This document shows positions 3,245 through 51,442 of a stretch of DNA of 64,000 nt, piece after piece. Made by a program: the position numbers and the translations under genes. Position 1 is the stretch's first letter. Each line of letters opens with the position of its first letter. The stretch is from Pyrodictiaceae archaeon (lineage in GTDB: Archaea > Thermoproteota > Thermoprotei_A > Sulfolobales > Pyrodictiaceae), in assembly GCA_027036135.1 (NCBI GenBank), contig JALVSY010000007.1:934880-998879 (forward strand), in the 5' to 3' direction. The notes beneath the pieces were generated by a model. It had not been told where the DNA came from. It ran no database searches and worked only from the letters and a program-made list of their open reading frames with translations.

Positions 3245-4429
3245 CTATATTTTTATGTTTGGTATTACAAGTAGGAGCGTTAATAGAGATACTATGTTTG
3301 TTAATATCGTAGCACGTTGTTCGTCTCGTAGTATCCTAGCCAGAGTATCTTGTATGACCCGTGCTCCATCCGTTATAAAGAGCGGGGCAGCATTTATGGC
3401 TGCAAGACCTATATTGATTAGCTCCGTGAACAGTATTATAATGAATAGCGTGTATGCAGTATTAGCGCTTAATCCAATGTCAACAAGGGTCTTAGGTACT
3501 GCTGTAAAGTATATGCCTATTCTATCATAGCGTAGTCTTTCCTTTCCCTGTATATTAGGTGGTGCAGCTTTTTTCACAACTGTTATATTAGTATTGTTTA
3601 TTAACTGAAACACTATTACTAAGGTTATATTTGCTATAGTTCCGCCGTTCTCGTTTCTGAGCTTTATCATGGCTTCCTCAAACTTAGTTATATCCAAGGG
3701 TCCGCTATTGTTTATGTAAATGGCCTTTACGAGAACCCCTCTCTTTAACCCGTACTCTTGAGCGAAAGAGTTGGGGGCGATGTTAACTATGTACATATAA
3801 TAACCGTTAGCCACTAAGGGCTTCATAGCTGCCAGTAATAGTAGCCAGAGTACAACGTTTGCCAAGACACCTGCAGAGTAGACACGGAGCCTCGCTCTAA
3901 GAGGAGCTTTTCTCAGCTCATCTTCGTCTGGTTCAACGAAGGCTGCTGGGAGTAGTCCTAGGAAAATAAGGAATCCCGCATACTTTACGTCAATACCTGA
4001 ATATCTTGCTGCGAGGGCATGCATGACTTCGTGGGTAATAACAGCTATCCCTAGACCTGGTAGTAGGTAGAGAAACGTTCTGATATCTATTGATAAACCA
4101 GGTATTAGGGGGACTATGGGTGCTGCTCCTGCCGGTCTCCCTGAGACCAGTAACAGTATACGTTCGACAAGCATCTTGTAGAACAGGAACATGAGTACAA
4201 AGACCGATAATATGCCGATGTCAAGGAAGAGCCCAATTGCTTTGCTGCCACGTAGCTTATCAAAGCTCTCAAATCTTTTTCTCATCTTAATAGCTATGAC
4301 GAGCGGGCTCGCTTCTATTCTCTCACTCTGCCTCCTGCTAAGAATGATGCCAGCGAGTATCCATGCGGTAACATAGAATAGCAGTAGCTGCGCTGTTGAT
4401 ACCACTGGAGACAACCCCGCGGAGCACAA
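3245..4429 (-). CDS. Membrane zinc metalloprotease, site-2 protease (M50) type with PDZ-like domain
   Basis: This is an integral membrane protease of about 390 residues. The zinc-binding HExxH appears as HEVMH in a hydrophobic segment near residue 130, and the second metal motif appears near the C-terminus as NAAPLFITDG, resembling the family's N-x2-P-x4-DG. Between them lies a soluble stretch that looks PDZ-like. Several hydrophobic spans flank these motifs. Such proteases cut transmembrane substrates inside the bilayer; no substrate can be inferred here. The start is uncertain: a TTG at 4429 gives the full frame and a GTG eight codons later is equally possible. It is convergent with dnaG and divergent from the nucleotidyltransferase at 4520. 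Confidence 0.8.
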   Translation of the reverse strand: MCSAGLSPVVSTAQLLLFYVTAWILAGIILSRRQSERIEASPLVIAIKMRKRFESFDKLRGSKAIGLFLDIGILSVFVLMFLFYKMLVERILLLVSGRPAGAAPIVPLIPGLSIDIRTFLYLLPGLGIAVITHEVMHALAARYSGIDVKYAGFLIFLGLLPAAFVEPDEDELRKAPLRARLRVYSAGVLANVVLWLLLLAAMKPLVANGYYMYIVNIAPNSFAQEYGLKRGVLVKAIYINNSGPLDITKFEEAMIKLRNENGGTIANITLVIVFQLINNTNITVVKKAAPPNIQGKERLRYDRIGIYFTAVPKTLVDIGLSANTAYTLFIIILFTELINIGLAAINAAPLFITDGARVIQDTLARILRDEQRATILTNIVSLLTLLLVIPNIKI

Positions 4430-51271: not shown

Positions 51272-51364
51272 GAACGCGCCCCGTGTTCGAATAAGGAGCT
51301 ATAGAAGCGGCAATCGAATAAAAAGTTATGTAAAGCTCTACAAGTCACATGTAATCAAACCCCG

Positions 51365-51435
51365 GAGGGTTGTGAGGACATACCCCGGGAACGAACTGAG
51401 ACCCTTGTGACGAGGTGGTCCTTCGCCGAACCCTC
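51365..51435 (+). ncRNA. Candidate C/D box guide sRNA
   Basis: The segment has all four boxes in order and spacing: C GTGAGGA (51372-51378), guide of 17 bases, D' CTGA (51396-51399), spacer of 7 bases, C' GTGACGA (51407-51413), guide of 12 bases, D CCGA (51426-51429). C and C' keep the TGANGA core and D' is canonical; D differs by one base. A terminal stem GAGGGT (51365-51370) with ACCCTC (51430-51435) closes it. Such RNAs guide 2'-O-methylation; the modified base would pair five bases upstream of D or D'. Targets were not identified. Confidence 0.6.
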
Positions 51436-51442
51436 TTCACTC

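Follow-up and report, generated by a model that had tools for sequence, protein, structure and literature searches.

A C/D box sRNA gene between pgk and lhr in a Pyrodictiaceae archaeon, with predicted pairing to both strands of 16S rRNA helix 23

The window analyzed here is a stretch of 64,000 nt from a Pyrodictiaceae archaeon (GCA_027036135.1, contig JALVSY010000007.1, positions 934,880-998,879, forward strand). This genome is labeled G000, and other genomes (G###), loci (L###) and families (f1, f9, etc.) are numbered likewise. The genes for phosphoglycerate kinase (pgk) and a large helicase-related Lhr protein (lhr), both identified by Pfam and both on the - strand, enclose an intergenic region, and no ORF of at least 60 aa in the program-made list overlaps 51305-51442. 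Direct reading of the + strand at 51365-51435 gives the order stem, C box, 17-nt arm (51379-51395), D' box, 7-nt linker, C' box, 12-nt guide, D box and stem (Table 1). This gene sits between the start of pgk and the end of lhr, divergent from the former and convergent with the latter. An A/T-rich block, readable in either direction, is a candidate TATA element for the sRNA (+), for pgk (-) or for both. ARAGORN found no tRNA within the window, Rfam gave no match to the element at the gathering score or at E-values up to 10, and its folding as a single strand was unremarkable (z -1.39; 20 of 200 shuffles fold equally well).

Table 1. Features of the sRNA gene and its surroundings (positions in the window)
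Feature	Positions	Strand	Observation and basis
5' arm of terminal stem, GAGGGT	51365-51370	+	6 Watson-Crick pairs with 51430-51435; sequence, shuffles
C box, GTGAGGA	51372-51378	+	k-turn partner of the D box; sequence
Pairing segment of D' arm, TACCCCGGGA	51381-51390	+	complements 16S TCCCGGGGTA, E. coli 678-687, 5' strand of h23
ACGAA, from pairing segment to D' box	51391-51395	+	WCGA here in 30/32 f1/f9 rows and 0/7 f2/f3/f4 rows
D' box, CTGA	51396-51399	+	sequence; row counts
C' box, GTGACGA	51407-51413	+	sequence
D guide, GGTGGTCCTTCG	51414-51425	+	pairs 16S 710-720, N+5 = G713 (E. coli numbering); also 23S CGAAGGGCCGCG
D box, CCGA	51426-51429	+	sequence
3' arm of terminal stem, ACCCTC	51430-51435	+	sequence, shuffles
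A/T-rich block, AATAAAAAGTTATGTAAAG	51317-51335	open	by eye; alike in G001, G003 and G004 of the same genus

A preliminary description of this locus had listed boxes in the order C, D', C', D, guides of 17 and 12 bases and a 6-bp stem, all of which the direct reading bore out. It had also taken CCGA for the only box with a one-base deviation, which needs correcting, as C and C' too are each one base off RUGAUGA. The element combines RUGAUGA-like C/C' boxes and CUGA-like D/D' boxes in the right order (with C, C' and D each deviating by one base), a terminal stem with a k-turn, and a 12-nt D guide with a Watson-Crick pair at N+5 on the 16S rRNA of relatives. The genome also carries a fibrillarin gene (E 7.5e-107). 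Conservation among kin and target pairing of the D guide support the earlier reading as a C/D box sRNA and, judged by its sequence, 51365-51435 is almost certainly an archaeal gene of this kind on the + strand.

A DNA search with a 111-base query gave matches in 18 of 39 genomes, and a sequence-only model (R1) built from 18 copies matched 47 of the 214 genomes of the order and 49 of the 229 of the class, the source genome being included in each count. Both approaches confirmed the presence in related genomes on which the preliminary description had laid weight. Of the matches in the order, 41 of 47 lie at E ≤ 3.7e-8, the other six being weak (five of f6, plus G181 of f11). The weak f6 matches (G052, G061, G068, G071 and G072; E 2.2e-4 to 9.2e-4) and that of G223 in the class search (2.4e-4) were excluded from the row counts; by eye, G061, G071 and G223 are unconvincing and G052, G068 and G072 have a similar D guide. 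In G217, which stands outside the order (E 3.2e-9), the layout is identical by eye. R1 found no match in the f1 genomes G010 (75% complete) and G019 (61% complete). A pattern scan of named genomes, in which the source genome was possibly not covered, returned 28 stretches from Pyrodictiaceae, Pyrodictium, Pyrolobus, Desulfurococcales, Desulfurococcaceae, Thermoprotei and Thermoproteota.

For comparison, 42 rows were extracted with a pattern that imposed D guide positions 2-8 and the letters of the D' core. Counts for the stem, k-turn and arm use 39 rows, without G037 (C box not recognizable), G181 (different D' arm) and G138, which was dropped because the parser misplaced its C box and which fits by eye; those for the stem and k-turn also omit G002 (contig end), giving 38 rows, 35 of them distinct. 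Across the distinct rows, the first five stem positions are paired in 125 of 175 cells vs. 93.0 (sd 5.4) when the 3' arms were redealt, a value reached in 0 of 10000 trials, although such tail counts are not probabilities, since shuffles ignore the relatedness of the sequences. The f9 stem is steady in its first two pairs only. The k-turn consists of the stem pair T51370-A51430, three bulged bases, sheared G51374.A51429 and A51375.G51428 pairs (implied by the boxes), and the pairs G51376-C51427 (3b.3n) and G51377-C51426 (4b-4n). The CCGA D box is matched in this way by the G of the GUGAGGA C box, and the pair co-varies in relatives: in 38 rows 3b.3n is G-C in 12, A-U in 11 and something else in 15 (Watson-Crick 23/38), and it is Watson-Crick in 20 of the 35 distinct rows vs. 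11.3 (sd 2.4) in shuffles, 3 of 10000 of which reach 20. The 4b-4n pair is G-C in 38/38 rows, with the G of box C demanded by the extraction pattern. At C'/D', 18 of 36 rows have C.U or C.C at 3b.3n. A Watson-Crick 3b.3n is described in the text of PMC4382518 as marking k-turns that are unfolded in metal ions alone and folded with L7Ae, and the predicted C/D k-turn fits L7Ae binding. At locus L015 (G018:C104, ~4159-4247), the D'-C' linker contains a long G+C-rich inverted repeat (CCCCCGG...CCGGGGG) in place of a short loop.

No 16S rRNA gene was found in the G000 assembly, whose stated completeness is 99.6%; a missing contig or introns may account for this. Pairing was therefore tested on the 16S sequences of relatives. 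Those covering the region came from G004, G007, G011, G014, G037, G106, G181 and G095, with fragments only from G093 and G008. The 23S sequence of G000 starts only at model position 931 (C30:217538 onward). Both paired 16S stretches are identical in six aligned genes from two families, with a one-base difference in the loop between them, and the G181 gene has one base different in the 5' stretch. What is apparently an intron of ~645 bases interrupts the 16S gene of G095 (f9; contig C7, 412 to 1057; L141, L138) within helix 23, directly after E. coli 687, the last position of the D' pairing.

The D guide pairs with 16S GGAGGACCACC through 11 pairs, one of them G-U, placing the fifth base from the D box opposite G713. 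Under the N+5 rule, 14 of 600 shuffled guides equal this match in 16S; against the 16S+23S region the guide is by itself not remarkable (231 of 3000 shuffles as good). Measured on one target string taken from relatives, pairing is kept at A712 in 42 of 42 rows, at G711 in 41 and at G710 in 39, guide position 9 standing opposite A712 and positions 10 and 11, opposite G711 and G710, exchanging C and T. The 42/42 pairing opposite 713-719 is not independent, since the extraction pattern fixed these positions. At its final position the guide has G in 37 of 42 rows, with no pair to G709.

The D' arm segment forms ten Watson-Crick pairs with 16S, equaled by 28 of 3000 shuffles in 16S and by 216 of 3000 in the 16S+23S region, the latter alone not being remarkable. 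In the Rfam structure, helix 23 joins CUCCCGGG (677-684) to CCCGGGAG (706-713), so that G713 is the partner of C677 at the base of the helix. The best 16S matches of both guides fall in this one hairpin, 36 nt apart; none of 20000 paired shuffles reached both scores at sites within 60 nt of each other. In 34 of 39 rows the D' segment occupies positions 3-12 downstream of the C box, and arm positions 3 and 4 (T, A; 38/39 each) have partners on 16S and none on 23S. By eye the arm of G106 has only 8 paired bases, and altered arms occur in G098 (TACTCCGGG) and in the weak match G068 (TACCTCGGG). A C[TCG]GA box follows 16-20 nt past the C box in 36 of 39 rows (at 16 nt in 3, 17 in 22, 18 in 8, 19 in 1 and 20 in 2) and is lacking in 3.

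Counted from CTGA, N+5 of the G000 RNA falls on C677, opposite A and unpaired, so that its D' arm lacks the Watson-Crick N+5 on 16S of a double guide, a feature not required of a C/D sRNA. With CTGA as the D' box, 16S offers no N+5 site better than shuffles do (239/600 for the best), and on the G004 16S+23S stretch one site scores 9.3 with the G000 guide (55/600 shuffles) but lies outside the Rfam rRNA limits. The rRNA pairing that the preliminary description looked for in its guides stands for the D guide, over 11 bases of 16S with N+5 paired, whereas the 10-base 16S match of the D' guide is out of register with CTGA. Because the duplex ends ~4-8 nt short of CUGA, the D' arm on 16S is more likely to be a clamp than a methylation guide, and since CCCGGGA is identical in both, it could replace the 3' strand of helix 23.

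A second C/D sRNA was identified in the same genome near C7:424203-424249 (L121, G000:C7:424133-424319, ~bases 42-118). It shares the last 11 D guide bases (GTGGTCCTTCG), its D' arm reads GCCCCTACAC, and inspection by eye shows a hairpin in the D'-C' interval. Similar copies are found in G001, G002, G003 and G004 (L120, L123, L122 and L126). Its D' arm pairs with 16S GTAGGGGC (685-692) over 8 or 9 bases, the identical 8-mer being found twice in 16S. A further arrangement occurs in f11 (L124, G181:C1:473042-473212), where the D guide core is shared and another D' arm matches 16S 674-682 with N+5 = A676 (by eye).

Several other readings of these pairings have to be weighed. The RNA may be an ordinary 16S double guide in which the WCGA following the 12-nt segment is the D' box, both guides then being 12 nt long and methylating G682 on one strand of helix 23 and G713 on the other. 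Archaeal C/D guides are given as 10-12 nt in the text of PMC7994747, and the D' segment does end exactly 12 nt past the C box in 34 of 39 rows; in the WCGA register N+5 is G682 with 10 pairs, equaled by 2 of 600 shuffles in 16S and by 15 of 600 in 16S+23S. The motif is nearly constant in f1/f9 (Table 1), and in G098 ACGA is present without any C[TCG]GA box. However, all seven f2/f3/f4 rows have CCTC, CCTG, CCCT, TCTT or TAAA in its place, and on inspection WCGA, with A or U first, cannot form the 4b-4n G-C pair with C' that CUGA, CCGA and CGGA can (the box search required the C). As these seven rows mostly keep the pairing segment, a non-methylating D' arm is favored over WCGA as D' box, and the double guide appears quite unlikely. 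An alternative that we regard as unlikely, if worth somewhat more credit, places the targets on 23S as well as or instead of 16S: counted by N+5 from CUGA, the D' arm would methylate the A of CCGAUCCCGGGG and the D guide a G of CGAAGGGCCGCG ~97 nt upstream, and the source genus (ACGA) would have lost the D' methylation through an N+5 mismatch. On this reading, the methyl site of the D' arm in TCGA species such as G011 would be the adenine of CCGAUCCC. The TCGA form of the arm (19 of 39 rows, with ACGA in 11) does pair with 23S CCGATCCCGGGG in G011 and G014, with 11 Watson-Crick pairs and N+5 on A, and 23S accounts for the conservation of C at arm position 14 (37/39) and of G at position 15 (31/39), which 16S does not. 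For G011, 42 of 5000 shuffles reach the D' score, 482 the D score and none both within 120 nt; with the own best scores of G004 these counts are 397, 462 and 1. On CGAAGGGCCGCG the D guide has 11 pairs (9 Watson-Crick, 2 G-U) in G000, G004, G011 and G014, and the guides of G004 and G011 score slightly higher on 23S (9.6) than on 16S (9.3). Against this, the 23S D site, a secondary match of the D guide, lies in a short hairpin without E. coli counterpart and, compared with those four genomes, is altered in G007 and G037 and deleted with its hairpin in G106 (L209), yet all three retain the D guide core. G000, G004 and G007, in which the arm puts A opposite A at N+5, do not differ at the 23S D' site, which shows no compensating change. 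The T and A at arm positions 3-4 have no 23S partner, and the CG of the arm is missing from the seven f2/f3/f4 rows. In G000 itself, the 23S site CCGATCCC is mismatched at N+5 for its own D' arm, the rule being met there in some relatives, and another 23S site (L052:8040) offers 9 pairs including N+5. D' matches come cheaply, since CCCGGGG strings recur in these G+C-rich rRNAs. Double use, on 16S in all and on 23S in some, is quite possible, and the pair of 23S matches lowers our confidence in the readings of the 16S clamp.

The true target of the D' arm could also be a tRNA, an mRNA or another RNA recognized through the full 15-17 nt, in keeping with the conservation of positions 13-17 in f1/f9 beyond the 16S match. 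However, the full 15-base complement YTCGWTCCCGGGGTA has its only exact occurrence at the sRNA itself in six genomes, and matches with up to two mismatches are about as frequent as in the reversed control, so this reading seems very improbable. Still less credible is a cis element of pgk or lhr, such as a leader, terminator or antisense, with only a superficial likeness to C/D boxes. What speaks for it is position, as pgk and lhr flank the element in 15 of 18 f1 loci; of the others, L003 (contig end) has lhr only, L012 (G007) neither gene, and L009 (G012) no lhr and only a pgk fragment ~1.4 kb off at the stretch edge. In the other families, however, none of 13 loci has either gene (≤1.5 kb on each side, less in a few), and these unlinked homologs still keep boxes and guides. 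As the adjacency is confined to one family, the sRNA would act in trans. Two further candidate targets were set aside: among guide matches in and around the 48 tRNA hits of the genome, the top 25 all fall outside the tRNAs themselves, and 23S TTCGTTCCC, with 9 bp to the ACGA form, has N+5 broken in the TCGA form.

The likeness to archaeal C/D double guides as presented in the texts of PMC4644070 and PMC7994747 lies in the order C, D', C', D, the k-turn stem, the length of ~65-70 nt, the 12-nt D guide with N+5 and the nearby rRNA sites; the D' arm, by contrast, is 16-20 nt and not 10-12, with a 16S duplex fixed to box C and out of N+5 register. Table 2 of PMC4644070 predicts 16S G660 and G687, in alignment numbering, for sR41 of Methanopyrus kandleri. 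Those sites differ from the ones found here, the comparison being of predicted sites and not of sequence. They presumably lie in the same hairpin region as the targets of the present sRNA, on an unchecked conversion of the numbering. Chaperone roles have been proposed from predicted pairings in which guides fall on two strands of one helix (main texts of PMC4644070 and PMC7994747). In Nanoarchaeum equitans, sR15 and sR17 are such proposed chaperones, each likewise one sRNA for two strands of one helix, 16S h30 and h28 (PMC4644070); there, widely separated strands are involved and methylation is predicted for both sites, whereas here the hairpin is local and one 16S site obeys N+5. Sulfolobus acidocaldarius sR13 (PMC4644070) similarly has a productive D guide and a D' guide that is paired but defective at N+5, though in one species and through a single mismatch, while the present arrangement recurs across genera with the duplex set back from the D' box. 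In the same main text, a mismatch at one of the two N+5 sites is recorded for 16 of 262 double guides, which are believed to pair with that site but not to methylate it. Neither G713 nor helix 23 is mentioned in the main text of PMC4644070. Our literature search found no published account of this RNA, and the supplements of that paper may include related sRNAs. The class of RNA is well known, and this family is an additional member without an Rfam match.

At the level of sequence, the boxes, the compensatory changes in the stem, the conservation, and the pairing of the D guide and D' arm with 16S 710-720 and 678-687 are established. On balance, these features point to an sRNA that would guide methylation of G713 while its D' arm acts as a clamp opening helix 23. 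In such a scheme, L7Ae, Nop5 and fibrillarin would bind the sRNA, and the D' arm, repeating the CCCGGGA of the 3' strand, would displace that strand on the 5' strand and hold helix 23 open. The D guide could then pair with the freed 3' strand, fibrillarin would methylate the 2'-O of G713, and helix 23 would close upon release of the sRNA. More tentatively, and with considerable doubt, the D' arm may serve as a dedicated clamp that is conserved but does not methylate. Mimicking the 3' strand, and with its distance set from box C and not from D', it would open helix 23 for G713 methylation, in which case the genus would have two such sRNAs with a shared D guide and staggered clamps at 678-687 and 685-692. 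The sRNA family is distributed over several families within a single archaeal order and leads to the prediction of one specific rRNA modification, and its D' arm would offer a natural test of C/D sRNAs as chaperones of rRNA folding apart from methylation.
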